DNA of 28,587 bases from Cudoniella acicularis (Eukaryota; Ascomycota; Leotiomycetes; Helotiales; Helotiaceae): contig JAAMPI010000668.1 of NCBI GenBank assembly GCA_013054445.1, positions 1 through 28,587 of the forward strand, given 5' to 3'. Numbering within the stretch: the first letter of the stretch is position 1; the number at the start of each line of letters is the position of its first letter. Positions 7,768 through 27,121 of the stretch are shown one piece after another. Made by a program: the position numbers and the translations under genes. Below the pieces are notes generated by a model. That model was not told where the DNA came from. It saw nothing but the letters and a program-made list of their open reading frames with translations, and did no database searches.

Positions 7768-10700
7768 TCAATTAAACTTATGATCTTCCGAAAACACCAG
7801 GCCCACTCTCCGCTCCCTATCCTCCTCCTCGACCCTCGACCTGCCCACCACCCCCACTAAAAATCCCACCTGCTCATTCAAAATCGGAAAATCAATGATA
7901 TCCTGCAGACTCAACTGTAACCCCTTCTTCACACACAGACTGGCCACTTCAGCCGCAGAGAGAGAGTCGCCGCCGACGTCGAAGAACGAGTCCTCGGGAT
8001 GAATATCCGTAACGTGGAGGACGGATCTCCAAATAGATGCAAGGTGCTCGCGGACCGTTGCCATGTTTGGAGGTACCGGAGACTGGGTTCGGGAAAGAAG
8101 AGGTGGAGATGGGGACTTCAGTAACAGCGTTGGAAGAGCGTCCTTGTTCCGAACCTCCTCGTCCTCGTGGCTCAGCGGGATCTCCAGAGTAGAAGCCACG
8201 CTCGCATTCAGATCATCATTCATCGCCCTCAAAATTCCAAACAACAACTCGAGAGCCCCCTCCGCTTTCTCCCTCTCCATCGTCTCCTGGCTGTATGTAA
8301 ACCGAAACCATGCGGTGCCATCATTCATCGGTGGCCAGGCCATCAACCAGCACGCCCCGCTTTGAAGCATACCGCCACCATAAACCGCATTTCCGGCCAC
8401 TTTCCAACCCGAGCCCGAGTCAGCCATCATATCTTCATCAGAGTCCGGTAAATTCTGAAATTGGAACATGGATTCGAACCGTGTTCCTGGTGGCCATGAA
8501 GTCTGTTCGGCGATGTGATCGAACGGCGTGGACTCGAAGGGGGTAGTGGCAATCTGCTGCTCGTGCACTTCCTTGAGCAGCTGCTTTAAGCTCTGACTGG
8601 TGTCAATGCGCACTCGGGTAGGAATGAAGTTTAGGCAAGGCCCAACAACATCTTGGGCGCCTTCGAAGTCGGCGAATCGTCCAGAGACCACATTGCCAAA
8701 GGTGATGTCTGTGTTTTGCGAGAGCCGCGAGAGAGCAAGCGCCCATGCGGCTTTGACCATTACAGAATAGCTCACACTTCCGGAATGCGTGAATGTGAAT
8801 GGAATAATTCGTTTGATACTTTGAGACATTATTGGCCGGGAGTTGCGCGCGGTAGCTCTCACGATACCGGCCATTGTAGAGCCTTTCAAAGTTTCTCGCC
8901 AGAATAACTCGGTCTTGCTGTTGCACAGCTGGAGAGTGTGCTCAATGAAATGGCTGTAGCTGACTGAGGGTCGAGTATCGGGAAGCTTTCCGGCATAAGC
9001 TAAATATAGATCTTTCAGTATAGTTGGCAGGCTAAAACCGTCGTACTGCGCATGAGAAAGCCCCAAAGCTAATATATGACGCCCAGTATTCGTGTCGATC
9101 ATAAGGCGGAATTTGGTTGGGACTTCCCCGAAGCAAACTGGGTACTTGACATCTTTGTCGAGTTTGGCACACATGTCGCTGGGGAATACATTGAAGAACA
9201 ACACCTTGAAGTCAGGCATGCGTTTCCGGACAGCCTGATAACAACGATTGTTGATCAGATGAAAACTAGTTCGAAGAATTGCATGATGTTGCGTTACAGC
9301 ATTGCAGGCTTCTTGAACTCGGGCGACCAGGGCTGAGGTGCCAACGTCGATGAATGACCAAGCGTAATAAGATCGACACCACTTTTGCCCCTCGACGAGG
9401 AAGGCAACTTGTGTCTGTGAAGCTTGATATATATCTTCAATGCCATGTTGATCAGCCGAGATTAACGCAACATCTTTACTATTAGTATTTGCTCCAGTCC
9501 CCAACCCGTCCGAAACTAGCGAGAACTGCTCCGAAGACGGAGTTGTTGTACTCAAAAAACTCTGATCATCAGTACTGGTGGAATTCTGCTCAAAGCCACC
9601 AACGGTGAGGTTGTGCCCCTTGAACCGATTCCCAGAATACTTTGATTCCACCAGAGTGGCCATATTTCGTAAAGTTCTTGTTTTGAAGACTTCTTGTGCA
9701 GTGATATGAATATCCATGGCTCTAAGTACCGGGATAAGCATGATCGTGGTAAGGGAATCGGCACCTAATTTGAAAAAGTCGTCATACGTTGCGATATCAA
9801 TCGCTTTTTCTTTCTTCAGAACACTCTTCCAGGCTTCTTCGATAATCTTCTCTGTCTTAGTCTTTGGACCCACCTCATCCCTTTGATGGACACTGGTCAA
9901 AGATCGCTGATATTCCATGATCACGTCTGAACTTATAGCCTCGCATAAGGTCGCAAGACGTTTTCGATCCGTCTTTCCAGAAGCGTTGAGAGGCCAGGAG
10001 GAGACTGGTATCCATAGTCTGGGAATCATGTATTCCGGCAATTGGCCACGAAGAGTATCCTCTGCTTTGCTGACTAGTTTTCCGAATCCCTCGGACGGTT
10101 GACCGAAGATAGGCTGAGTAGGCGCCGTGCAATCATCGGGCAGGTGCGCGAAGGCGACCAAGGTGGGGTTGTCATGGAAGTCGACTTTAGCGGCAGCCAC
10201 ATGCTGAGCAGCCGAAAGACAATGACAACTTTCAATGGCGCTCTCAATTTCTCCGAGTTCAAGCCTTAGTCCGTGGAGTTTAATCTGGCCATCCTCTCTT
10301 CTACCCAATATTTCAACACTTCCATCAACGTTGAGTCTCGCAAGATCCCCTGTTTTGTATAAAACCTTCTCCCCGATCCTTGTCAGCCAAGGCACATCTT
10401 GAATAAAAGCTGCTCGCGTCTTTTCGTTATCATTGAGATATCCACGAGCGAGCGTAGCTCCAGTGACGACTAGTTCTCCAACGCAAGAGATCGGTATTAA
10501 ATGATTGTGATCTCCCTTATCGACAATCCATAAAGAACCGCCAACACGTTTTCCTACATTTCCCACTGGCTTTTCCGGATCGACAACCCCGACCGCACAG
10601 CCAATTGCAACTTCGGTAGCTTCAACAAATTAGAGCTATATTTTTTGGGGGTAGGGGGCCAGGATGAGCCGGAAGGATGAGACATCCTCTGACTGTGAGG

Positions 10701-13700
10701 AGTTAAAGGAAGGGATAAAGAAATAAGTTGCTTACGACCATAGCTGTTCACGAAAACTTCCAAAGCTGGTTCCCGAGAACTCCACTTCTTGATCAAGGCC
10801 TGATTTGCCATTTCGCCTCCAATGGCCAGGCCCGTGAGCGTTGACAATCTAGAAGGTTCCAGTAAATTGGCCACCGTTGGCGTGAGATCAGCGAAGTTAA
10901 TATTCATTCTCTGTATAATGCTTTCTAGGTTGCCCAAACGTTCTTGTTCAATTGGGATGCATACGCAACCGCCATACGCCATAACTGCGAAGATGTCAAG
11001 GACACTCGAGTCGAAGGTGTATGAGCTATATTGAAGAGCTCGAGTCTTGCTACCGCGACGCTCGTGATGATATCTCTTGCCATGCTCCAGGACACTTAAG
11101 CTTGCGGTACCGTGCTCAGTAATGACCCCCTTCGGTTTTCCACTCGAACCACTGCAATTAATTAGCATATATGTTTTCTCGGGGTAGGGAGCCAAGAGGA
11201 GCCAGTAAGATGAAACATCGGTGGGGGATTGAGAGGAGGGACAAAGAAATAAGTTGCTTACGATGTAAATGTCACATAAGCTACATCCTGTGGCGTGACG
11301 GTACAACCCTTGGCCAGCTTTGTAGGAATAGAAAAAAGTTTCGAGTCAAGGACAAAAGTTTGTACCGGAAATTTAGACGATCTAGCCTGAAGGGGAGAAA
11401 CCACAACCACTTGTGCCCTCACTTCCTAGATGATGTACTCCACTCGGGAAATGGGATGACTGACGTCCAAAGGTACGTATCCGGCGCTAGCTTTGAGTAC
11501 GCCTAGAATGGCGACGATCATGAGTTTCGACTTTTCGAAACACAAAGGAATGAGATCGCCGGGCTTGACATGATACTTCTCGATAAAAATTGCTGCTAGA
11601 GTATCGGCGGCGGCATCAAGCTCCTTGTAGGTCAATCTCCCATCATGAGCGTCGACCGCAAGTTGATTTCCATTGTGCTTTGCAAGTTTCTCTACAGGCT
11701 CATGAAGACAGGCGTTTGACGGTGACTGGGGAGTACTGTTCCATTCTAGCATACGGTGGAAGTCATGCTCATCTGCTAGACTCCATATCGCAGAGCGAAT
11801 AGTAAGATTATTGGTGTTTAACGTCATGATCATCCAGGAAAATTGCCGAAGGGTATGGCGCACCTCTTCTTCACTTATTAAGGAATGATCATACGAAGCG
11901 GATATCGACATCGAATCCCCGGCACGATTTTGCATACACTCTAGCACCAAACCAAAAAGCTCAATCATGCCTTCCCCGACATCTGGGAGTCTGCTAATTC
12001 CTAGTGGTAGCACGTTCTCGTGCAACTCCGGAGGTTGAACAACGAGTAAGTTGGGAGTCTTGCATATTTCTCGTGCAGACTTGCTGAGCGCTTGTATTCG
12101 ACCGAGGCCATAGTATTCATAAGGTAGCATCGATATCGCTTGGTCATGAATCTGTTGCAAGTATTGACCGATTGATTTTTCAGCGTTTATCTCTACTCGC
12201 ACAGGAACAGTGGTAATGGTGGGCCCGGTCATATCTTCAATTCCATCAAGAGCGATGCTGCGCCCAGATGTGGTAACTGCAAAGCAGACGTCTTTTGTAG
12301 TTCCAGACATCCGGCTACGCATCGACATAATCATTGCCCAAGCAGCTCGAGCGACAGTCGCAAATGTAAATGGACAGGAGGCATTCCATTGCAATTTTGT
12401 GTCGATCGTCTGGAACGTTTGGGAAGTTGTCCTGAGTATATATTGCGGTGGGAAGACTGGGAAATGTTCTCCACGGAATCCTTCTAGACTGTTCTTCCAA
12501 AACTTGATTGTCTCTCCTTCAGGTAGAGAATTTAGATGATTTACGTAGTCTCGAAAGGGCGGCCTGGGGGAAGGACATGTAAGATTTTCGAAGGCGAAAA
12601 GGAAGTCATCCCACAGCAACTTTTCGGACAAGCCATCGTAGATTGCATGGTGCTTTGCCATTTCCAATGTAACGCCATCGGAGGAGCTCAAGGCCCTGTA
12701 TCGCGCAAGAGAGCTACCCATACCCATGGTATCGTTACAAGGCCCTTCATTGAGTGCTTCAACCCAATCAAATTGGGAACTGCAGACCACTTGCACGTTC
12801 TCAACCCCATTTTTAGTTGACATCGAACAAATTCGAGTTCGCAAAATCGGATTGTTCAGGTGGACAAGTTCCCATGCCGCCCGAAAGCGCTTCAAATCCA
12901 TATCTTTAGGCAATCGAAATGCCGCACGCGAAATGTATGCTTCCGGGACTCGCGCTGTGACGGCCATTAAAGCTTCCTGAATTGGAGTGCACGGATAAAC
13001 ATCTTCTATTTGTGAGACTTTCAACTCGCATGCTGCCGCAACCGAGGCTATTGTTTCGGATTTCAGATGATAGGATTTAGCTTGAGCGATAGGTTTTGCC
13101 AGGTTCCGGGATAGTAGCGAGCCGTTCGAATTAGCCTTTCTGCTCCTCTCAACCAGTATGACCATATCTTCAAACTTGGGAGTTCGAAGTATCTCAACTA
13201 CTCCAAGGCCAAATCCAATTTCGCGGCACAGAGTAGCTAATTTAATGGCCGCAATAGAGTCTCCACCAAGACCGATAAATTGGCTGTCAAGACCAATGTG
13301 ACTTGGATCCAAAGCCAAGACTTGCGCCCATAATCCTTGGAGAATCTTCTCTACAGTTGTCCTAGTTTCGCGCTTTTGTACTAGGCCCGGTTGATATGAA
13401 ACGACTTGGGCTTGAGAACATTCGTAAAAAATGCGCTGGAGTGCCTTCCGATCTACTTTCCCGCTGGGGGTTAGTGGAATTTGGTTAATTGGCAGGTAGA
13501 ACTGTGGGATCATGTAAGGAGGTAAAGCTTCCGTAACCTTGGCAGAGGCGTTGCGGATGATTGACTGGATGTGGTCTGTTGGGACAAGCAGTTTCTCATC
13601 AAGTCGCCTTGCTGCTGTGTCATTCATCGTGAAAAATGCAATCAAGACCTCCGAGCTCTTCCCTTGGAGAGAAACTTTGTCCACAACAGCGGATGTTATT

Positions 13701-16700
13701 CCTTCGCAGTGCTCTACAGCGTATTCAACTTCCGTCAATTCGACACGGAAGCCATGGACTTTTGTCTGCAGATCTCTCCTTCCAATGAAATTGATCGAGC
13801 CATCTGGATTCTGTCTCGCGATATCTCCAGTTGCATAAAATCGACTCTCGCCATGCAGGGCCCAAGTGAATGTACTTCCATCAATAAACACTTTTCGAGT
13901 TTTTTCATCATCGTTCAAGTAACCACGAGCCAGTGTCGAACCCGAAATGAGTAGTTCACCTACACAGCCGACGGGAACCAATTGACTGTGATTACTGGGC
14001 TCTACCACCCAGAGATGTGTGCCATTTGGATAGCCAATATTGTTTGGATCTGTTGTCGGTGTGATGTCCACATTCCTGCAGGCATCCACGCAAGATTCCG
14101 TGGGGCCATACGAGTTGATGAGACGAAGTTTAGGGCTCCATTGCTGTAGCAATGTCTGTGGCAAAGGCTCTCCACCACTCCGCAATGTCTTCAATGACGG
14201 GACTTGTGAAGGACTGTGCAATAAATTTCTGATAGCTGTCGGGTTTAGGAAGGCTAATTCGATCTCGTTGTCATTTATGTATCCGCTTAGATTTCCCAGA
14301 CGCTGGTCCTCAGGGGGAATACATAAGCAGCCGCCGTGCAACAAGGTCAGCCAAACCTCCATAACACTACCCAAAGAATTAGCACTGTAAATTCGAGGAA
14401 AGATGAAGAAGTAGAGAGCTTCGGAGCTGCCCAGGACAACCGGGCGTACCGGCTTCCGAGATCAGATAGCACCCAGGCTCTCAACTCCCATAAAAAAACA
14501 GGAAAATTGAGTATATGAATAGCCTTACTTGACGTCGAATGTATAGGCCGCGAAGGAAAGAGTCCTCGTGCCTTTGGAGTAGTTTAAATAGCGCCCATTC
14601 GCAAGAATTGTCGTTGCAAGTGCTGTGTGGTCGATGAGAACGCCCTTGGGCTCTCCGGATGATCCGCTCGTGTAGATGATATAAGCAAGATCAATCATAG
14701 CAGAAGCCTTGATGCTTTTCCCAGCGCTGTGAATTCTGTCTGTATCTTCAATTGAACTGCATTCACTGTTAGTCAAATGTTCTAATTACAACTAGTCACT
14801 CTATTTCCTCGACCGTTGAGCCTTCAGCATTGCAAACTCATACAAAACATCTGAAAAGTAACTATACTTAGAGAGTTAATTTAAGAAGAAAAGCTAGACT
14901 GGGTTGAATTCTCCTTCTTTCAAATACCGTCTCACAGTAGCAGAGCTATTCAGAGTGTTGTATCGGATTTCGGGATACTGCGCGCTTAACGGGTGAAGGG
15001 ATAACTCACTCAATCTTTTGCGAAACGTCTTTCCTCAGTCCCTCAATATCGCAGCATATTGGCTGTATGGGGAGGCCAACCAGGTTAAGTGCTTGATCTA
15101 GCGTGCAAATAATATGCTCCGCGCCGAGTTTGTCCAGGAGTAAACGGAGTCGTTCCTGTGGCAAGTCTGTTCCTAGCGGAACGTATGCTGCACCAGTTTT
15201 GAGAATAGCAAGCATGGTGACAACCATTGCAGCACTTTTAGTCATGTAAAGTGGCACGGCATCATACTTCAAGATCCCAAGCAGCTGCAACCTCGCAGCT
15301 AATTTCGAAGATAACTTATCTAATTCCTCATATGTCAGTGTAGCATCACTAGCTTTGATCGCAATTAAAGATCGCCACTCATGGGCTCGTTCAGCAAACA
15401 AATCGTCGACTCTTTTCGTACATGGTACGATAGGTGTGCTATTCCAACCCTGCACTTGTTTTATCCCTTGTGGACCGTTCATGTCCAGGTCTTGCAGAAT
15501 TTTATCGGAATTAGTGCTTAATTCGGATATCAAGCGTGAAAAGTGGTAGGACATCCACCTTACATCCTCCGGAGAAATCACACGGTCGTCGTAGGTGAAC
15601 GAGATCGTAAGATGGTCATTGCCTTTGGGCTGGCACTCAACGGTGAGGCAGTCGTGTTCGAGCAGGCGGTCTTCTTGAATTGGATGCGGGATGAGAACCA
15701 TATCCTCCTCTTCTTTGGGCTTGGAAGACGCCATTTGCACAACCACAATCGAGCTAAATTTACACGCAATTTTTCCACTGTCGCCAAGTTTACGGATATT
15801 CCGGGTGCCAAATTGCTCCCAGGGTAGGGCTTCCAGGATGGTGGCTTCGACCTTCTGAAGATATTCGGCCACACGTTGTGCACGGAACAATAACAGTCGT
15901 CTTGGAACAATGACAATGGATGGTCCGATCATTGCGTCTATACCATCAACAAGGGTCGCACGCCCAGAGCGAACTGTGCTAAATGATACATCTTCAGTCT
16001 CTGTATAACGGCTTAAAAGAAGACCCCAAGCAGCTTCGGCTATTGTTGCTAGTGAATATTTGGCATTGGTACGAAACGGAACCTTGTCCACATACTTCTG
16101 GTTGGCCTCGAAGGTTGGCGACGCCTTAATCTGGGGCAGAAGAGTCATGTTCAAATCAACCAGATATTTTTTCCAGTACTGTTCGGCTTGGGATGACTGG
16201 CCAACTTCCATTACATGGCGGATAAAGGAGGAAAATACTGCAGTGGGTGGTTCTGATACAGATTTTGCTGAGTATTCACGTTCAATGTCCGCGAGCAGCA
16301 AGTTACTAGACCAGCCATCATGAATGGCATGATTTTGTGAGATAACCAGGTAGCAATGTGAGCCACATGTGATTATTGCGCATCGGAATAGGCTGTCCCC
16401 ATATCCCGGGGCAGACGATGCATCTTGTCCTAGATAACTCTCGATATTCTGATCCGCAATTAAATAAACCTCAAGAGCCTCATTGACGACTACTTGAAGG
16501 CTTCGGTACTTGTCATCGAGGATTATGCGAGTTCGCAAAATATCATGCCGTGCCCATACAGCGGAAACCAGCTTTGGTTGAGAAGTCCCAGGTGCCAGCT
16601 GAAAAGCCTCCTGATTGAAAAATGCCCCACACGATTTTGTCGAAGATATCATGAGTGCTTCTTGCATTGGAGTGCCTTCAACAAATTAGCATCCTCTTAT

Positions 16701-19700
16701 TGTGGGGAATTGAGGGGAATGGATAAAGAAATAGGTTGCTTACATGGGTACACATCTAGGATCATATCGCTAGGAAGATGACATTTCTCAGCCGCGATCG
16801 AAATGCATGTTTCCTGATCAAGATCTCCGACCAAAGAGAAAGGCATCGGCCGCTCAAAAAGTGTTTCATTTGTCGATTGGTTCCTGGCTAGCGATTTCGC
16901 CATAGCCTCAAGTGTGTCATGATGGTATATGTGCTGGAGATTAAGATTTAACTGTTGTCTCCGGGCGCCGGCAATAATCCGAATCGCTGTGACAGAGTCA
17001 CCCCCAAGTGAAGCTATGGTATCATCAAGACCAATCTGCTCTTTGGGAATTTGGATCGCCTCGGCCCATATTTGTGCCAGGAGTTCTTGAGAGGGGTTCT
17101 GGGACGGGCGCTTGAAGTTGCTGCTACCACATCGATAGGAATCTATTATCAACTCAACCGAAGCTCGCAAATGTCGCCGGTCAACTTTTCCAGAGGTAGT
17201 CATCGGCAGGCTGTTGACGGGTACATATATCGCTGGTACCATAAAAGAAGGAAGCACAGGGCTCAGGAAAGCGCGCAAACTGTCCAAGACATCCTGTGAC
17301 AGCTTTTGAGGAGGTAAAGGCCCTTCATACTTACTCTGTTGAGGTGAGCCAATCACGACGAAAGCTACCAGTAATTCCGATGAGATCACATCGACAACAC
17401 ACCCAGAGAAACTACCGTATTGCCTGATTTGGTACTCAATTTCAGATAATTCCAGCCTCTGGCCATGAATCTTGACTTGAAGATCCTTACGGCCCAGATA
17501 TATAATGGATAGGTCTGGAGCGTATTGAGCCAGATCCCCAGTCTTGTAGTATCGGAAATCGATGCCATTCTGGTTGAGTGACCAGGGGGGGTTCACACCA
17601 AACACTTGCGATGTCAAAGCTGGCTGATTCAGGTAGCCATCGGCTAGTGTGTTACCGCAAATGACCAATTCTCCTATCGTGCCAATGGCTGAAAGTTTAT
17701 TAACGTCGTCCAAGGTAGTGATGAAAATGTTGCAGGCAGTTGCTCGACCAATATTGTGAGGATCATTGGCATTTAGGGCTCGACTTGTTGAGGTATGTAC
17801 GCTATTTTCGGTAGGCCCGTACCCATTTAGAATCCGCACCGCCGGAATCTTTGAAGCCCAATGCTGAATCAAATCACGTGAAGGAGGTTCACCAACTAGC
17901 ATGAGACTCCGCAACGTGGGCATGTTCTCGGGCTCTAAGAATTGAGCTACAGTCGGGGTGAGAATTAAATGCGTAATGCCAGAGTATTCCACAGCTTCAG
18001 CGAGTTTGACAGCTCGTCGTTGAGACTCGGACGGCATACAGACGCACCCACCAGAGATTAAAGTGCCGAAGACTTCAAGAATGCTCATATCAAACGTGAA
18101 ACTCGCATACTGAAGCATCCGAGTTTCTTGGCCTAGGCCCATCACTGATGCAGCATCCAAAAGAGAGGTTGCAATTGCCGATTGGCTGATGACCACGCCT
18201 TTTGGTACTCCTGAGGATCCACTCGTATAAAGGATGTAGGCACTTTGATTCGTTGTGTTTCGCTATTCATATCCATGACAGGCCGCTGCACCACAATGGG
18301 AAACCCAGGGTCGAGTAAGGTGAACTGTGAAGGTGCAAATAGTGAAGTTTGAGAAGATTCTGTTAGGACGAGACAGCCGGTGCCTAGGTCCCCGAGTATA
18401 GTGCGCAGTCTGGTAGGTGGTGCTGAAGGATCAAGCGTCACAAATCCTCGGCCAGCTTTCCATATGGCAATCATTGCAATTACCATTAGAGGGCTCTTTT
18501 GAAAGCAAAGCCCAAAGATTGAAGTTGGGCTGTATGCTTCAAGCTGCTTGGCTAGTTTCGTGGCATACTCATCAAGCTGCCTGTAAGATAAGCTCTTGTA
18601 GCTGGTGTTTTTATCCGGTATTGACTCAATGGCTGGAGATTGGGGGTATAGTGATGCCACCTTTTCGAACAGATGGTGGATGAATAGGGATGAAGATGAA
18701 CAGAGCTTAAGATTTTGTGCCTGGATTTCAAGTCTGTCTGCCTTTGTAATGAGCTCAAGCTCGCTCACAATTTTGTTTGGATCACTGCACTGAGTCATAG
18801 TCTGGTCCAGCTGGAGGATAAAACGCCTCACTTGCTCTTTTTGGAGACATTTCGGATCATACTCGACCCTTAATGTGACACATCCATCAGAAGCATCAAC
18901 TTCTGCAACTATCACAAGGGAATAATTTACGGACATCGAAGTCTCGTCAGGAACCGGATCTCGAACGGCTCTGTCATCTGCAATTTCAGTAGAGCGCTTT
19001 TGGAATTGCTGCACAACAAGGAGAGTGCGGAACTGGATCGCATTTCGTGGGCCATCTTCTTGTAAGCGTGCGATGTTCTGTAGGCCGTAATGTTGATGAT
19101 GTCGCATTTCTAGCAGGGAATCTTGGGTCTGCTCAAGCAATTTCGCCACTGCCTGATCGCGACTGATTATCGCACGCATTGGAATGGTCGAGGTTGTTGG
19201 GCCAGCGATATTGGCGAGATCAGGCTCATCTCGACCGGAGAGTGTGGTTCCATAGCACACATCATCTGTATTACAATACGCCGACAAAAGCACAGTAAGT
19301 GCGCTTGCCACTACCGTCGCTGCTGAGATCCCACCAGCTCTGGTACGTGTCAAATCCAGATACATTTGGTGCTCCGTGAATTCAGTTGCTTGGGCTCGAT
19401 ATTCGGGACTTGGAAGTCGCGGAAAAGAAGTCAAAGGGGTGTCCTTGAGCTGCTTCTCCCAAAAGGTCATTGCGTTATCCAAGCTCAACGTGGAGAGATA
19501 TTCAATGAAGTGCCGATAGGGTGTGCCGGCTGGCCTTGTGTTTCTGGGATGGGAGTAGTTGTAATTTATATCATCCAGCAGTCGGATCATTGTCCAGCCG
19601 TCGTAGAGAACGTGGTGAATGTTAAACACTAAACGCTTGTTCTGGCCTTGTTGCATCCAATAGCGAAACAGATTTCTTCGGTCGTTTTCGCTGCTTGAGG

Positions 19701-22700
19701 CGGGTTTGTTTCGGCAAATAACCTGCATAACTCCTTCGCTCGAGTGAACTATCTTCGTCCGCCTTGGGAGAAAGTTAGTATAGGTTCTTAAGAGACTTTT
19801 CAGAAGCTCAGGAGCCGAATGCTTCCAAGACAGTTCTCATGACATGTTTCAAGAGCTCGGCCCCCATATCTCCTCGACCGTTATGTGCGCAGCAGAGCAA
19901 ACTCGCACAAATACTCTAAAATCAAGAAATAGCCACTAATTGAAAAGTGCTAAATTTCAAGAGTTAATATAAGAGGATATGCTAGATTAGGATAAATCCA
20001 CTTTTTTCTTATTATGTGTCACGGTAGCAGAGATAGAGAATGTTATAACCTACTTTCCGATACTGCGCGCATAACGGTCGAGGGGATAAACGCAAGACTA
20101 ATGGCAGAATATACGTACCAAATGGGGTTCTTTGACACTACTACGTCGATTGCCCGAGTCAGCTTCATTATATCCACATCCTTGGCGAGCTCAAACGTCA
20201 TGACTGCATTGTATGAAGTATCTCGATTCTGCTCTAACCGTGCATGATCTCCAAAAGCAATAGCAGCAAGGCCTTCTTGAAAACTTGATGTGGGGAAAAT
20301 GTCCTCAATCTCATCCAAAGACATGTGGCACTGCTGGGCTATTTCTGTACGAAGACCATCAGAAGCAACAAACCCATTTTTTGCGGGGGGCGAGGGGATA
20401 TTATGTAGAGCATTGGCTACTGTAGCAAGATCTTTGAGTACTGGATGCCGGTAGACTTGTTGCACCGAAATCTCCAGCCCATGGTTTCTTGCTGCACTCA
20501 CCAATTTGATGGCAGTAAAAGAGTCACCTCCCTGACTGAAAAAATCTACAGCTGTGTGGAGTCGCTGCTTCTGCATGAAGACTTGGCGAAAAGCAGCTTC
20601 AAGGGCAATTTCTGAGGGGGTGGTGGGGGGGGGTTTCCCGTCGCCTGCTCTTCAAACCCTTTGTTCAAGCCAAAGTGGAGGGATATATCAGGTATTTTCT
20701 GGAGCTCATCTCTCAAACGTTTGAGGTCCACTTTGTCTGATGCTGTGAAAGGCATCCTTCTAATCGGTACGAAAAGCGTAGGAACGTACTGTTGGGGAAG
20801 AGAATCCTCTAAACGGCGTTGGGCATTATGGCACAGCTGCTGAAATGCTTGCGTGCATTCTTCAGTAGCGATGAGTTCTTGATTTGAGGGTTCATTTGGC
20901 TCGGATGGACCGATTTCGAGAAAGGCAGCAATTTTGGCATTGGAGTGGTCATCATAGACACACTGGATAACGCAAGAAGCAAAAATGCCTCCTTGTTTCC
21001 GTAGTTGCTGTTCTGACTCGCCCGGCTCGACCCGGATCCCGTTTACCTTGATCATTCGGTCTTTCCGCCCCATGATGTGGAGGCTCCCGTCCGTACCATA
21101 TCTGCCTATATCACCAGTGAGATAGATTCGGGATGGCATGAGCCCAGTAGCCAGATGAGGTGCTTCAACAAAGTGCTTTTGCGTCAGATCTAGACGATTC
21201 AAGTAGCCTCGAGCCAAGCTGTGTCCAGCAACAGCTATCTCTCCACTACAGCCACTGGGAGCTGGGTAGAGGGCACCGTCTGAACCTCTGCGCACAATCC
21301 AATGCCATGCGGTGATGTTCCGTCCAATTTTGCTTGGATCGGCATCAATGGAGAGAGGGTCAGTCACTGCGGTTGTGATAGATGCCTCGGTAGCTTCAAC
21401 CAATTAGCCCGATGACTTTTTGGGGGTAGGGGGCCGGGAGGAGCCGGGAGGATGAGACATCCTCTTACTGGGGAAGTTAAGAGAAGGGTTGTACAAAGAA
21501 ATAAGTTGCTTACGACCATAGGCGTTGAGTAAACGGACTTTTCGCGACCACTTCCTGATCAAAGGTTGTTTTGTCATCTCACCACCCGTCATGAGCACCT
21601 TCAGCGCATAGGCATCACAGGGAGAGATCAGCTCCACAACCGAAGGCGTAAGAATAGCTGACTCGATGGCGAACTCTCCCATTGTCAACGAAAGCCGATT
21701 GAGGCGATTTTCCGGCGTCGGAACGCATATGCATGCGCCCGAAAACAATGGGATGAAGACATCAGCAACAGAAACATCGTAGCAGAACGAGGAGAATTGC
21801 AGGTGGCGAGTGCCGGGTTGGAGGGCGAAGACGCGTGTGAGATGGGTTATACTGGTGCTCAATGCACGATGCTCCAGCATCACGCCCTTGGGTAGCCCAG
21901 TTGAGCCTGACGTATATAGAACGAAAGCAAGAGTGGACGCATCAGACCGGTGACGCGCCTCGGCATCGGCATCGGCATCGGCATCGGCATCGGCATCGGC
22001 AATGGACACGGAACCAGAACCGGCACCTCCCTTGGAATTCTTCCAGCAACCTTCGGTGACTTCTATGAGGTCAACGGCTTCGGAAATACCAGCATATGTC
22101 CGTGCGTCCTGGCGCGAGCACAACAACACCATCGCGCGCGTCTCGTCCAAAATATGACGAACACGCTCCCGCGGCCACTTCTGATCGATGGGGACATATG
22201 CGCCGCCGGCCTTCAACACGGCAAGCATGGTAATGATTGCTAGCGCCGACTTCTCCAGAGCTACGGGAACAATGGTTCCGGGTGCGATCCGACAGCAAGA
22301 CTGGAGCCAGGTTGACAAGCGGCTCGAGCATTCATCGACTTCTCGGTATGTAAAGGATCGCGTAGCCTGGTCGTCAACGGCCGGCCTGTCAGGATATCGA
22401 TTAACAGACTCGCGGAACAGCTCGTGTAAACACACGTCGACAGCAGCCCCATAGCCGTGCGCCCATTCTGCGGCACGAGTCTGTTCGTCCTCGATCGAAA
22501 GCTTCACCTGCGACACTAAAAGAGGCACACCAGCCGGTCGAGAGAGGTGTTGCAAAACCGAATCTAGCTGGCTCAGCAACACGCTCACGTCACCGGCTGC
22601 GAGGTAGGTCGGGTCTGCGTTGCAGTTAACCAAAACTTGGCTCCCTCCCAGCACCAGTTCCAAGGACAGCGGGATGCTGTCCGCCATACCCGATGTCTGA

Positions 22701-25700
22701 CCATGGACCTCTTCCCAGAGCCCCTCGCCAGCTAGGTTTTCGTCCTCCGGCTGGACCACAACGAGACACCGGAAATCGCACGCGCTCGCCGCCTCGGTCC
22801 CGCATTCCCTGATTCTCTGAAGGCCGTAGTGCTGGTGGAGGACAATGTTGACTACGTGACGTGCGATGCGTTGCAAGAAAGACTCCACGGTGCATTGGCC
22901 GTCAATCTGGGCCCGGAAGGGGAAGCTCGCAAAAGCTGGGCCGATCATATCGAACACACCATCTAAAGGTGCCTCCCGCCCTGCGAGAATGAGCCCAAAC
23001 ACAACGTCTTCACTGTCGCTGTGGGCGCCGATTACTAGTGCCACAGCAGCATAGAGGATGGTGGCCGGGGTGACCCCATAACGCGCCGCTGTGTCCAGCA
23101 GCAAAACGGGTACCTGCCGCGACTGCCGCTCCGTAGCATGGATCTCGTCGAGAGCCCTGGCCTTGGGTCCGGAGGGCAAAGGGGGGAAGTCCTGCAGTGA
23201 GAAACCTTCGAAATACTGTTTCCAGAACTTCTCGGAAGAAAATTTGATACGCTCATCATCTTCCATACGCCGCTGCATAAAATGAGCAAAGGAGAGTTCT
23301 TCGCTGCAGGAAACGCTCTCAGCAAAATAGATAGCTTTCAGCCTATTGAGCATGAGACGCAGAGACCAACCATCGACTATTGAATGGCTTATCTTTAGGT
23401 AGAATTTCCAGCGCTGCACTTCATCATTCCACTGAACAAAGCCACGGCAAAGATCGTGGCCTAAGGACATCGGCCCCTCAAAGTACCCCTTGGTCCAGTT
23501 GGGATTTACATGGCGGATTGTGACCTGCAAGAAGTCCTGTTCAGTAGTGTCCCAAACCAAGCGATTGCGAAGTACTGGCTCTCTGGAAATCAGGCCCCCC
23601 CAAGCAGTGCGGAAGCGGTCGATATCAAGATTCTCGGGGAGGGTCCAGCTGAAAGCGCAGATGTAGCTCCCAGGGCATCTCAAATCCAGAGTCATTAAGC
23701 CGGCTTGGTACCTAAAATGAATGGAGCATCAGCCATTACTTACTTCAAGATATTTGTAGGGTAGGTAGGAGTAAGGGAAGGAAATAATATGGTCCAAAAG
23801 CAGGAATAGGTAAGCCGGAACTTACTGTGTGCAGAAGTAAATATCCTCGATTTCCCTGATCTCGACGTGACAGGCCGCTGCCGAATCTTCAATGATAGGG
23901 GCGAGTGGCCTCGATGGCGGCAGCGAGCTAAATGGTCTGTAGTCAGCGACTCCAATCGGCTTCTCAGAGACTGCAAGACTTTGGTCCTGGGATTGCTGGC
24001 CATGGCTGCGCGCAAGCCCTTGGATTGATGCTGTGGCGTAGACCTGCGAGAGACTCAGATCCATGCCGGCTTTTCGAGCCTTCGAAATGAGCCGAATCGC
24101 ATCCAAGGAATCTACTCCGAACTGCATGAAGGAAACAGTTATGTCGATCGAAGACGTAGGACGGTCGAGCACTTCAGCCCACAGAGATTGGAGTTTTGCC
24201 TCGACTTTATTGCAGGTTGTGTGGCTTTGTTGCCGAGCATCGTCAGCAAAATACTCCAAATGTTCAATGTATGTCTCTGCGTCCATACTTTCGAGCCAAG
24301 TTCGGAGCTTGATCCGGTCAACTTTGCCGCTCGAGGTCAGCGGAATCTCTTCCATGGCCCACCAGCTTGTGGGAAGCGCATGCGTTGGTAGCAAAGTGAC
24401 TGCAGCCTCTTTTGCTTCTCAAAGAAGGAGCAGGACCTCTTGCAATCCATTGAGCAACCCAACCTGGAATCTGGCAATTTTCGGTTCTGGGGAGGCTAAA
24501 TTGGTCCCTTGGGCTTTGAAGGATTGGTGCAATACAACGATGCTGCAAAGTCGACCACCCGAAGGTCCCGATCGTGGGAGAACAATTGCGCATTTTTGGA
24601 TGGTATGGCAGGTCAAGATGGATTGTTCGACATCCCCCAGATCAACACGGATCCCATGTAGCTTCACCTGGCCATCTCTGCGACCGAGGTACCGGATTGT
24701 CTTTTCACCCGCTGGACCCCTCTCAATCTTCCCAAGATCGCCAGTTCGATAATGCCGCTTCCCGTTTCGGTTACACTCGATTGATTTGGTGTCTTTAGAT
24801 TTCTCGGTGGATATATAACCCCTGAATAACTGAGGGCCAGCGACGCATATCTCCCCGATTTCACCTTCTGGGACCTCTTCTACACTTCCATGCGCAAGAA
24901 GGCATACTTCGAGACCGGGAAGTTCTTGCCCAATACACGCAGCGTCAATTTGATTTCCTCCCAGCTCTTGTGTGGTGCACACAATCGTCTCTGTAGGGCC
25001 TGCCAACAAATTAGCACTATGTTTTTTTATCGGAGAAGGTGGCTAGAAGGAGCCAAGAGGATGAATTATCCTCTTACTGTGGGGAATTTGAGGAGGGATA
25101 AAGAAAAAAGTTGCTTACCGTAGGCATTGAACAACCGGACCTTATTCCTCCATCGATTGGCAAGCTTCTGGGACAGCGCCTCTCCAGAACTGGTAAAGAC
25201 CTGAAGACTGGAGACTCCCGGGGGGTCTATCATCTCTAGAATTGTGGGTGTAAGCTGTGCGTAGGTGATTTTTGCCCTCCGAATGAATGTTGTCAGGTCC
25301 GCCACCATGCTGGACAAAGGCGCCATAATCAGACATCCTCCGCACAAAATTGTCATGAACAGATCGAGGCTAAAAACATCAAACGTTGGTGCTGCGAATT
25401 GAAGCGTTCGAGTTTCGGGACCGAGTCCGAATTCCTTGACCAACTCTCGCACATTGTGCGCGACCGCCAGATGCTCAATGAGGACGCCCTTTGGGACGCC
25501 AGTAGATCCCGAAGTAAACAAAATGTGGCAGAGGTCGCTTGGATTCCGGTTACATCCCAGATTACTGCTAGAGCAGGATTGGAACTGCAGAAGATTGGGG
25601 GGTTAGACGCTTCTCAACTTGGAATGTTTCGGGAAGAGTGAGGTATTCTGCTCTTGAGAAGTCTCTAGAGTAAAATCATGAAAAGCCTCTATCACCTACC

Positions 25701-26206
25701 TCGAGAGTCCTGAAGATTTCGTCAAGCTTGAAACATGACACCATGTCTCCCACAATGTGCTTGGTCGATTCGGAACAGAATGCAAGCTCGATATTGCAAG
25801 CCTTGAGGATGTGCGAAATTCTAGCTCGAGGGGCGTCCTGGGGCAATGGCACCCACGCCATTCCTGCCTTCAACACAGCCAAAATGGCAATCACCAAAAA
25901 AGGACCCATTTCCAAACATAGTGCAACTATCTCTCGACCTTCAGGCTGGCGATTTTTCAAATATCGAGCGAGGCGGTTTGAACTGTCATTCAACTCCGAG
26001 TAGGTCATCTGCACATCTGGATAATATTCTATTGCGACATTTCCAGGCGTCTTTATTGCTTGCTCCTCCAAAGCTTGATGGAGTAAAGAAGGCATAGAAG
26101 GCCCCATATTAGAATCTTTGTTGGATGTTGTAGAGTATCGAAATTTTGTCAAATGCTTCCCCGGTAGTGGTATTGATGGACTATTCCGGCTTGGAGCATG
26201 CTTCAT
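7768..26206 (-). CDS. Giant five-module NRPS, (A-T-C)x5-T, frame interrupted four times
   Basis: Assembles a peptide, probably from five amino acids, on phosphopantetheine arms. Exons by eye: 25700-26206, 25119-25584, 23826-24999, 21514-23711, 20119-21393, 16744-19762, 15010-16675, 14529-14756, 11262-14366, 10736-11151 and 7768-10619, about 5.6 thousand codons. All ten junctions are GT-AG and keep the domain reading frame. It starts directly with an A domain (no loading C) and ends C-T with no thioesterase, reductase or epimerase seen. Each A domain has the TSGS(S/T)G, YGPTE and (Y)xTGD motifs. Each C domain keeps the second His of HHxxxDG. The ATG at 26206 is chosen because A-domain sequence begins about 35 codons later and no domain is seen upstream. 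Breaks: TGA 24419-24421, C-run frameshift near 20630, frameshift at 18235-18262, TAG 11426-11428. So it may be a pseudogene, or the assembly may be faulty. Product unknown. Confidence 0.88.
7860..8090 (-). other. NRPS C-terminal carrier domain T6
   Basis: FFDVGGDSLSAAEV near 7950-7990 is a complete phosphopantetheine attachment motif with the acceptor serine. It follows C5 through a Ser/Pro-rich linker and is the last domain; the protein stops about 60 codons later. No thioesterase, reductase or further C domain follows, so how the product leaves is not evident. Confidence 0.85.
10620..10735 (-). mobile_element. Introner-like element, copy 5 (NRPS intron 10, in A5 domain core motif A5)
   Basis: 116 nt, phase 1, at exactly the same codon position of YGPTE as copy 2. 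Starts GTAAGCAACTTATTTCTTT and ends CTCTAATTTGTTGAAG. Hairpin arms AGGATG and CATCCT with a 3-nt loop. The intron is visibly more similar to copy 2 than are the surrounding coding sequences of the two A domains. Confidence 0.88.
11152..11261 (-). mobile_element. Introner-like element, copy 4 (NRPS intron 9, in A5 domain core motif A3)
   Basis: 110 nt, phase 2, splitting FTS|GSSGKPKG of the fifth A domain. Starts GTAAGCAACTTATTTCTTT and ends ATGCTAATTAATTGCAG. The left hairpin arm is partly lost; GATGTTTCATC remains. Its position (A3 motif) is not homologous to that of any other copy, so domain duplication cannot account for it. Confidence 0.88.
11426..11428 (-). other. In-frame TAG stop inside the fifth A domain
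   Basis: RVEYII is followed by TAG and then by EVRAQVVVVSPLQ in the same frame, which continues 55 codons to the A3 motif. The position aligns to a residue usually Gln/Asp-like in A domains, so CAG to TAG is the simplest origin. A 57-nt GT...AG alternative would delete a conserved strand of the fold. Confidence 0.8.
14367..14528 (-). other. NRPS intron 8 (162 nt)
   Basis: GTAAGG donor, phase 2, splitting FDV|NVMEV of A4. Its 3' end (GTGCTAATTCTTTGGGTAG) resembles the introner-like 3' end, but the rest does not align by eye, so I treat it as ordinary or as a very degraded copy. It contains a nested inverted repeat (GCCC/GGGC inside TCGGA/TCCGA) around 14419-14460. Confidence 0.72.
14757..15009 (-). 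other. NRPS intron 7 (253 nt, mostly MITE copy B)
   Basis: GTGAGT donor at 15004-15009, CTAAC branch-like site and ATGCAG acceptor, phase 2, in A4 upstream of its A3 motif. The donor hexamer directly abuts the TA that flanks the inverted-repeat element, and about 80 percent of the intron is that element. Confidence 0.8.
14802..15003. mobile_element. MITE-like element copy B, diverged, with flanking TA
   Basis: Body 14804-15001 (198 bp), same orientation as copy A. Shared blocks include CTCGACCGTT at the left end, GAGTTAAT, GCTAGA, AGTAGCAGAG-like sequence and GATACTGCGCGC near the right end. The terminal inverted repeats have decayed (16 of 26 positions match), so it is older than copy A or less constrained. 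TA flanks at 14802-14803 and 15002-15003. Confidence 0.75.
16676..16743 (-). mobile_element. Introner-like element, copy 3, internally deleted (NRPS intron 6, start of C3)
   Basis: Only 68 nt. Starts GTAAGCAACCTATTTCTTT and ends GATGCTAATTTGTTGAAG. It matches the 5' half of the other copies up to the left hairpin arm (AAGAGGATG) and then jumps to the branch-site/acceptor end, so about 50 nt of the middle is missing. Splits DVYP|CTPMQEAL in phase 1. The join restores a Cys codon and the standard motif. Confidence 0.87.
18235..18262 (-). other. Frameshift just upstream of the A3 motif of module 3
   Basis: Upstream sequence is open through FPIVVQRPVMDMNSETQR. The A3 motif (AYILYTSGSSGVPKG) is in the next frame, and that frame is closed by a TAG at 18263-18265. 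The event therefore lies in this short interval and equals one missing (or two extra) bases. Intron alternatives need donors such as GTTCAC or GTTTCC without a branch site. Confidence 0.75.
19763..20118 (-). other. NRPS intron 5 (356 nt, carries MITE copy A)
   Basis: GTACGT donor, ACTAAC branch-like site and CCCAAG acceptor, phase 2, restoring a Trp codon within NPIW|RTKIV of C2. It is the longest intron of the gene because it contains the inverted-repeat element described separately. Confidence 0.82.
19867..20088. mobile_element. MITE-like element copy A, with TIRs and flanking TA
   Basis: Body 19869-20086 (218 bp). The left end TCTCCTCGACCGTTATGTGC and the reverse complement of the right end, TCCCCTCGACCGTTATGCGC, match at 23 of 26 terminal positions. 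TA dinucleotides flank both ends (19867-19868, 20087-20088), as expected of Tc1/mariner-type insertions. It has no coding capacity and lies wholly inside NRPS intron 5. A diverged second copy lies at 14802-15003. Confidence 0.8.
20580..20657 (-). other. Frameshift between A2 and T2, most likely at a C9 run
   Basis: A2 is read in one frame down to the C9 run at 20626-20634; T2 (RQVFMQKQRL, then FFSQGGDS) is in the next frame. The downstream frame is closed upstream by a TGA near 20657, which bounds the event. The shift equals one missing (or two extra) bases. A mononucleotide run is the typical place for both slippage mutation and sequencing error. Confidence 0.82.
21394..21513 (-). mobile_element. 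Introner-like element, copy 2 (NRPS intron 4, in A2 core motif A5)
   Basis: 120 nt, phase 1, between the first and second base of the Pro codon of YGPTE in A2. Starts GTAAGCAACTTATTTCTTT and ends GGGCTAATTGGTTGAAG. Hairpin arms GAGGATG (21448-21454) and CATCCTC (21458-21464). Closest relative by eye is the intron at 10620-10735, with which it shares GGCCCCCTACCCCCAAAAA. Confidence 0.88.
21962..21999. repeat. Hexanucleotide GGCATC tandem repeat (six copies) encoding (Asp-Ala)n
   Basis: Six perfect GGCATC units at 21962-21997 plus a partial one. On the minus strand this encodes alternating Ala-Asp in the surface linker before the A3 motif of module 2. No other A domain here has it. A frame-preserving expansion, likely length-variable between strains. 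Confidence 0.9.
23712..23825 (-). other. NRPS intron 3 (ordinary)
   Basis: GTAAGT donor and TTTTAG acceptor, phase 2, splitting the first motif of C1 (YFCTQ|YQAGL). I see no similarity to the repeated families, although C3 carries an introner-like element only a few codons from the equivalent position. Confidence 0.75.
24419..24421 (-). other. In-frame TGA stop inside A1
   Basis: The frame reads QEVLLLL, stop, EAKEAAVTLLP, and A-domain sequence to SGKVDR continues in the same frame. No intron explains it well: the only frame-keeping GT...AG pair (57 nt, GTTGGG donor) has no branch site. A single C-to-T change in a CGA codon would produce it, but other origins are possible. Confidence 0.8.
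25000..25118 (-). mobile_element. Introner-like element, copy 1 (NRPS intron 2, in A1 core motif A5)
   Basis: 119 nt, phase 1, splitting the NAYG|PTE motif of A1. Starts GTAAGCAACTTTTTTCTTT and ends GTGCTAATTTGTTGGCAG. Contains a perfect 8-bp inverted repeat (AAGAGGAT at 25055-25062, ATCCTCTT at 25068-25075). Homologous along its length to the introns at 21394, 11152 and 10620 and to both ends of the one at 16676. Its insertion point is 3 nt upstream of that used in modules 2 and 5. Confidence 0.88.
25585..25699 (-). other. NRPS intron 1 (ordinary)
   Basis: GTAGGT donor after a GAG codon, CTAAC branch-like site and CTGCAG acceptor, phase 0. It joins the A1 N-terminal half to the A3-motif exon. 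It has no resemblance to the repeated intron families in this gene. Confidence 0.75.
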
Positions 26207-27121
26207 GAGAGAAGAGAACTATCCCCAGCTGTACCTCATTTCTACCCTTTGGACAGTCATTCAAAAACTCTCCTCTTGTTTCTACCGGAGTAATTCAACA
26301 GTACTCACAGAAACATGCACAATACAACACTAGCTGCCAAAGCTAGGATCGGCGATCCCTCTCGCCTAATACAAATGCTTCTGGGGAACGATGAACTACT
26401 CTGCGTTCACCTCAGACATTAAAATTGCGATCTTGCCATCCGCGCTTAAGCCTAGATTGTGACAAATCAGTCCTGTGGTAGTCACACACACGAATCTTTC
26501 TCTGATCCATTCACCCTGAAAACTTTTAATCAAAACAAAATCAGTTAAAAGTAGAGCCGAATCTTTCGGTCCGACCGGGTCTTAAATGCGTTTGTTCTTT
26601 TTCTCTAGCCCCGTGTCTCATCGGAGCCATCTTCAAGCCCCCTGGACGGGTCAGCAGAAACCCCTTTCCTGGCCCAATCAGCGAGGCACATCTCGTTCGC
26701 CACTTGTGGGGAAGGCGGGGTCAGTCAATAATTGACCCACGATCTCTTCAACGCCTCAGCCAGAGCCATGCCAGGAACATGCAGTAGCGGGGAGTTGAGC
26801 ACACTGAATTTTATTGCTCTGGGGCTCTCCGGTGGTTGAACCCCGTGGGACGAGACCCGGAGAACCTTTGTCACAGCGCGAAATCTCTTTCGTCTTGTTC
26901 GTGAAATTTCACGGCCAGGCGAGGATGTGACGCACACAGGTGACGAGTCTGACTGGTAGAATAATGGCTTCAGAGTCGATGCCCTAGGTATGCTAACCCC
27001 CCTCTCCAGTTTATCTCACTATTCATTTCAGTTCTACTTTTCTCCCGCTCTCTCTATAAACCGTGGTATTATTTCTAGACATTCTTTCAGGAGGCTCTTG
27101 GCGGCCTTGTTACTCAGAACT
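26207..27121. other. Intergenic region: NRPS promoter and 3' flank of the acyltransferase-like gene
   Basis: No domain-bearing open frame seen. The left part should hold the NRPS promoter and 5' UTR, the right part the 3' UTR of the upstream gene. It contains the inverted repeat at 26718-26738, described separately. A 70-codon open frame at 26725-26937 shows no recognisable feature. Confidence 0.5.
26718..26738. promoter_or_regulatory. Nested inverted repeat, candidate regulator site upstream of the NRPS
   Basis: GTCAAT-A-ATTGAC (26724-26736) is a 6+1+6 palindrome, framed by GGGTCA (26718-26723) and TGACCC (26733-26738). It lies about 510 bp upstream of the NRPS start codon. The symmetry suits a dimeric transcription factor, but no named binding site is claimed. 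Confidence 0.3.

Follow-up and report, generated by a model that had tools for sequence, protein, structure and literature searches.

How did five related introns come to lie in a single non-ribosomal peptide synthetase (NRPS) gene? The question is raised by a 28,587-nt stretch of Cudoniella acicularis contig JAAMPI010000668.1 (the whole of which is called the window here), in which a multimodular NRPS gene is interrupted by five GT...AG introns of one family, I1 to I5, all on the minus strand. A preliminary description of this DNA had assigned them to an introner-like element, that is, a spliceosomal intron that multiplies. We recovered all five, and their excision in silico rebuilt the split motifs N(A/S)YGPTE (I1, I2, and I5), TFTSGSSG (I4), and DVYPCTP (I3). 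The introner assignment held up as well: we put the probability that these introns belong to a genome-wide introner family at roughly 0.93. As far as sequence can tell, copies of the same intron sit in unrelated genes, mostly in sense and with ends that keep the reading frame, no target-site duplication accompanies them, and homologous proteins appear uninterrupted at four of the five NRPS sites.

Further copies, which the preliminary description had suggested looking for, were found across the genome, many of them in other genes. The 53.2-Mb assembly contains 13 exact occurrences of the family's 19-nt 5' end, three within the window; bacterial and archaeal genomes and viral contigs had no exact match, as would be expected of a fungal sequence. 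Allowing up to three mismatches gave 166 genome places (100 of them listed with coordinates) compared to 26 for a reversed-pattern control, and the 3' 15-mer GCTAATTTGTTGAAG at up to one mismatch gave 107 compared to seven. Searches with full-length copies returned 27 matches for I5 and 40 for a copy from another contig, each query counted. Used as a query, the GTAACC-type copy at locus L059 had 40 genome matches, itself counted, of which 31 by manual count were not among the places listed for the 5' 19-mer or the 3' 15-mer; there are therefore at least two subfamilies. Pairing 89 5' places (up to two mismatches) with 100 listed of the 107 3' places yielded 26 pairs. The two-sample copy-number estimate was 336, with 253 and 318 under two stricter choices; these values are rough, as decay is correlated between the ends and chance matches are counted in. 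The family probably comprises a few hundred copies, 250 to 340 by this two-ended estimate.

We curated 71 copies, keeping 51 of 56 rows in a first set (five were dropped, judged to be chance hits or one copy read twice) and 20 of 26 in a later one, where the script did not recognise the ends at L081, L088, L095, L096, L097, and L101. By eye, the dropped rows other than L095 resemble family copies. Most copies were found by the 5' 19-mer or full-copy searches, so the sample favours well-preserved ones. Units are 68 to 148 nt long (median 118) and mostly consist of a GTRAGY or GTAACC donor, a C/T-rich body, a CTAAT-like branch site, and an AAG, TAG, or CAG acceptor. GT...AG ends and a branch-like site are present in 71 of 71 by construction of the selection, and the branch A lies 10 nt from the acceptor end in 54. 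Judged by these signals, each unit is non-coding and carries a complete U2-type intron. Two arrangements were seen by eye or by position: on contig C1760 (68319-68579, L017 and L081), two introners of different type lie about 25-30 nt apart and would leave a micro-exon, and L054 and L059 each hold one GTRAGY and one GTAACC copy near each other on the same strand, perhaps within one gene each.

Evidence that the copies act as introns came from a frame test on 51 copies with flanks, in which the upstream-longest frame was followed downstream after intron removal. The downstream open run averaged 167 codons at the splice frame, compared to 36 and 33 at junctions shifted by one and two bases. The splice frame was best in 41 of 51 copies (5/5 in the window, 36/46 elsewhere), and phases 0, 1, and 2 were represented 14, 15, and 12 times among these 41. 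Retention placed a stop in frame in 47 of the 51 introns, and in 46 the joined sense frame exceeded its antisense counterpart. Ten spliced hosts, picked from 43 printed, were searched against Pfam and all ten matched, with nine kinds of family represented (NRPS, two MFS transporters, LCAT, ABC transporter, AAA protein, PAP2, ApbA, GH43, and carboxylesterase). The best domain match crossed the junction in nine, the exception being the PAP2 protein. By these measures, the family copies behave as introns.

We then compared the NRPS sites with homologues taken from a large protein search. Proteins P0001-P0004 and P0010 (59-67% identity) continue without a gap across the I1 site, P0005 (56%) across that of I2, and P0121, P0122, and P0123 (53-66%) across those of I4 and I5. 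At I3, the seven top-scoring spanning proteins are all at most 33% identical. Because several of the gap-free homologues begin or stop mid-domain, we take them as unspliced open reading frame calls, and we infer their orthology likewise. When all spanning rows are counted, which takes in relatives of any distance, a gap lies within about four residues of the junction in 3/118 (I1), 7/256 (I2), 6/48 (I3), 0/111 (I4), and 43/256 (I5). With gaps in some rows, the intron may therefore be patchily distributed across homologues, and introns near A5 may have been gained in parallel. The preliminary description had also invoked the introners of Dothideomycete fungi; that link found no support, as the named fungal relatives in the protein search span several groups; for one NRPS query the top-ranking one was Cudoniella acicularis, over only 11% of the query. 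Cudoniella is a genus of the Helotiales.

Within the window, the 5' 19-mer at up to three mismatches occurs five times, compared to a mean of 0.03 in dinucleotide shuffles, none of 100 of which reached five. The earlier description of the introns as near-identical overstates their likeness: pairwise identity among the four full-length copies is 72-84% (global alignments, gaps counted) and I3 is without its middle, so that lengths span 68-120 nt instead of the 116-120 nt first given. The shared 5' end was upheld in all five copies, but the 3' end is more variable than had been described, reading GCTAATTTGTTGGCAG in I1, GCTAATTGGTTGAAG in I2, GCTAATTAATTGCAG in I4, and TCTAATTTGTTGAAG in I5. The introns occupy four positions instead of three kinds of site, since I1 lies in one register of A5 and I2 and I5 lie in another, 3 nt away.

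Table 1. The five introners and their host gene, in window coordinates.
Feature	Coordinates	Length	Strand	Position or content
Introner I1	25000-25118	119 nt	-	Phase 1, Gly codon of NAYGPTE (A5, first A domain)
Introner I2	21394-21513	120 nt	-	Phase 1, Pro codon of NAYGPTE (A5, second A domain)
Introner I3	16676-16743	68 nt, internally deleted	-	Phase 1, Cys codon of DVYPCTP (C-domain start)
Introner I4	11152-11261	110 nt	-	Phase 2, Ser codon of TFTSGSSG (A3); 3' exon starts TGG
Introner I5	10620-10735	116 nt	-	Phase 1, Pro codon of NSYGPTE (A5); same register as I2
Host gene, multimodular NRPS	7768..26218 (limits approximate, from open frames)		-	Condensation, AMP-binding, and carrier domains

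Nine of ten scanned exon pieces of the host gene match condensation, AMP-binding, or carrier domains. The gene carries two in-frame stops, at 11426-11428 and 24419-24421, which may reflect a decaying gene or an assembly error. It also contains an element of another kind, a 222-bp sequence (19867-20088) with 35-nt imperfect terminal inverted repeats (TIRs), which on our reading sits within another intron of the gene (~19763-20118) and has TA at both ends. Relatives occur at 39 or more other places with 73-87% identity over all or most of the element, 40 of 65 candidate places having been scored; the element and its relatives are a family of miniature inverted-repeat transposable elements (MITEs).

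The insertion sites of the introners share a sequence feature. Target-site duplication (TSD) gave no signal when matches between exon and intron edges within 51 copies were compared with those of shuffled partners (ten positions in three comparisons, lowest p 0.08). The 3' exon starts with TG in 29 of 71 copies against a background of 6.6% (binomial p 3e-16) and with TGG in 18 of 71 against 2.2% (binomial p 2e-14), the background being sequence 50-400 nt from the first 51 copies, applied also to the 20 later ones. TG follows copies of both subfamilies (24/62 and 5/9) and both AAG (20/47) and other acceptors (9/24). Among the 41 frame-supported copies, 16 have TG and nine TGG, the latter in all three phases. 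Ordinary introns at the same loci, 14 heuristic calls and not annotated introns, were followed by TG in none (Fisher p 0.002). The TGG downstream of I4 is native, lying within the conserved TSG motif that homologues share. Upstream, the last exon base before the donor is a pyrimidine in 66% of the 71 copies.

On this evidence, the TG(G) preference would be a new feature relative to related fungal elements. Known fungal introner-like elements are described as integrating into seemingly random exonic sequence (PMC8469720), and for the stwintrons of Hypoxylaceae and Xylariaceae an insertion-site bias is reported to be absent (PMC9024468). A survey of 3,325 genomes describes a general bias to GC-rich motifs (PMC9860276). 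No TG(G) target is reported in those parts of the introner literature that entered the comparison, which lay outside the founding Current Biology papers. That the family picks its target by sequence, just 5' of TG(G) and mostly after a pyrimidine, instead of using AG/G proto-splice sites, is a tentative proposal that we hold with more doubt than belief.

Could the five introns simply be old NRPS introns that were copied between modules, by module duplication or gene conversion, with no mobile family behind them? I2 and I5 would suit this account: they share a codon position and the codons around it (TAT GGT C/CT ACC, the slash marking the junction), and their 84% intron identity is tied for the top among pairs of 51 copies. 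The full-length window copies also average 75% identity compared to 65% for other pairs. For the family as a whole, the account is refuted by the many members in unrelated genes. I1, I3, and I4 moreover lie at different positions and have their closest relatives outside the window NRPS, and homologous proteins are uninterrupted at I1, I2, I4, and I5, so that we consider module copying highly improbable. The earlier statement that module duplication alone could not have spread the introns is sound for most copies but less certain for I2 and I5, with their common site and top-tied identity. For this pair, the same target may have been struck twice or conversion between modules may have occurred, and intron-free homologues of each module (P0005; P0121-P0123) fit both alike.

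Donor and branch motifs are common to fungal introns generally, and ordinary introns could look alike by chance through shared donor, polypyrimidine, and branch signals. The probability of this is negligible, given similarity over the entire length (E 7e-29 for I5 against I2 and 1e-24 against a copy on another contig) and pattern counts 6- and 15-fold above reversed controls. A DNA transposon of the MITE introner type, as in algae, with ends that double as splice sites, is a more substantial proposal, which we nevertheless consider unlikely. Its target preference (TG at 29/71) would recall the target choice of DNA elements, partial complementarity is seen between the consensus ends (7/9 positions), and a genuine TIR element family is present in the same gene. 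Against this, there is no duplication at either edge, a long terminal inverted repeat was not seen in the alignment by eye, and the element brings both splice sites. The sense bias (46/51) also speaks against a transposon, though selection could produce it as well.

We favour instead an introner family that spreads as whole introns, a combined reading that we regard as very probable, and several observations weigh against it or against parts of it. The splice frame was not the best in 10 of 51 copies, and the antisense joined frame was longer in 5 of 51, where both frames were below 165 codons; splicing itself is predicted from genomic frames. The comparison of presence and absence among homologues, proposed in the preliminary description, bore out insertion only in part: I1, I2, I4, and I5 are uninterrupted in some homologues, but no close one spans I3, and the A5 segment is absent from two named models, at I1 from P0009 (Cudoniella acicularis) and at I5 from P0124 (Metarhizium brunneum). 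Their gaps may be introns called there or mis-annotation, and A5 introns may thus occur elsewhere. AG precedes the donor in 1 of 71 copies only, and this rarity at the 5' exon end, together with the TG(G) preference, is unlike what simple reverse splicing would be predicted to give. The greater likeness of the four full-length window copies could reflect local spread. It may also reflect sample selection, perhaps because the searches used I5 as a query and favoured exact 5' ends. Structure within the copies is a further point, since neither the base pairs of the consensus hairpin nor the near-terminal complementarity show covariation, and near-terminal pairing within copies was no better than between them (518 of 2000 shuffles as high).

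Some sign of structure was nevertheless present. RNAalifold returned no consensus pair, but a 7-bp consensus hairpin drawn by hand had 79% of its cells paired, and perfect stems of at least 6 bp occurred in 22 of 71 copies compared to 2.9 expected under mononucleotide shuffling. Near-terminal complementarity extended to seven of nine consensus positions and averaged 5.8/9 per copy compared to 2.6 for interior 9-mers, with an almost equal 5.7 at a register 3 nt off. We rejected both the hairpin and the near-terminal pairing as signs of a maintained structure, given the lack of covariation and, for the near-terminal pairing, of any advantage within copies over that between copies. The central hairpin appears to decay uncompensated, as would be expected of copies that are neutral after insertion.

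The invasion had been called recent, and the divergence of the copies contradicts this. When gaps are counted across the full alignment, no pair among 51 copies exceeds 84% identity, and the mean of all pairs is 65%; aligned columns alone reach 88% among the full-length pairs listed. Introner families thought to be active are 98-99% identical, whereas those of Dothistroma are much lower, and degenerated fungal families are known too (PMC4457414). The present family would thus seem to be old and eroding, much like the state described for Dothistroma.

The density of copies in the window NRPS gene is higher than random placement would give. With 90-336 copies and an assumed 20 Mb of coding sequence, 0.08-0.3 copies would be expected in 18.45 kb, and five or more in one such gene has p 3e-8 to 2e-5 per gene, or 3e-5 to 0.02 genome-wide. 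A second NRPS locus, on contig C1298 (2095-24824, minus strand), carries at least three introner 5' ends in the same orientation as its condensation domains: two fall inside the condensation-domain span and one about 2 kb past it. On other contigs, none of the listed 5' places (up to two mismatches) fell inside a condensation-domain span; therefore, NRPS genes do not look generally hot, while the window and C1298 loci do. Candidate causes for these hot loci are target choice, low expression, or relaxed constraint.

Compared with systems already described, the family is new but its kind is not. Fungal introner-like elements are known from Fulvia fulva, Dothistroma septosporum, Zymoseptoria tritici, and relatives (PMC4457414). 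Like the present family, they are short spliceosomal introns with many copies in unrelated genes and several families per genome, they decay towards ordinary introns, and some genes carry two insertions; their new introns can lie 1-8 nt from an intron of another species (PMC4457414). Identity here is lower than in the active fungal families, a comparison by description and not by sequence, and the TG(G) preference differs from the seemingly random exonic sites reported for them (PMC8469720). In the 3,325-genome survey, ascomycete introners such as those of Alternaria alternata likewise lack TSDs and are described as direct insertions, and enrichment of introners within genes was seen in 161 of 175 genomes across all groups (PMC9860276). 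Again compared by description, the main text of that survey has a GC-rich bias and not TG(G) (PMC9860276).

Sister stwintrons and cropped introns of Hypoxylaceae and Xylariaceae are also multiplying ascomycete introns with seamless insertion and no TSD, and they function on the coding strand only (PMC8469720, PMC12403724, PMC9024468). Unlike the present copies, they show long symmetry at their termini or complementary repeats of 10 nt near them and often contain nested introns (PMC9024468), whereas here we found a TG(G) bias and complementarity at merely seven of nine consensus positions without covariation. With lengths of 68-148 nt, a nested internal intron of the Hypoxylaceae stwintron type is unlikely. 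In the algal MITE-type introners of Micromonas and Aureococcus, as here, an inserted repeat makes the intron; some of those have TSDs and/or TIRs (PMC9860276), in contrast to the absence of TSDs in our copies.

If the introner family is accepted, we give even odds to its having spread by an RNA route. In such a scheme, the element would spread as intron RNA, starting from the intron excised by splicing. The excised intron would re-enter a transcribed gene, whether joined in at a break or reverse spliced into RNA or into a coding strand that lies exposed, and would be copied into DNA, preferentially right before TG(G). Each new copy would then be spliced out of the transcript of its new host, which would render the insertion nearly harmless. 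The 3,325-genome survey, from 2022, describes no sign of DNA transposition for ascomycete introners (PMC9860276).

The gain of spliceosomal introns is a long-standing open question, and a family with a few hundred copies and a clear target preference offers a handle on the insertion step. If the target is indeed chosen by sequence, a nicking or priming step, and not the site preference of the spliceosome, would decide where introns arise; one example would be an antisense CCA 3' end annealing to an intron RNA that keeps the UGG of the donor's downstream exon. The window NRPS is a single gene with four introner positions; two lie 3 nt from each other in the same codon motif, and of this pair one is filled in two modules. 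As such, it bears on how frequently parallel gains may be mistaken for old shared introns.

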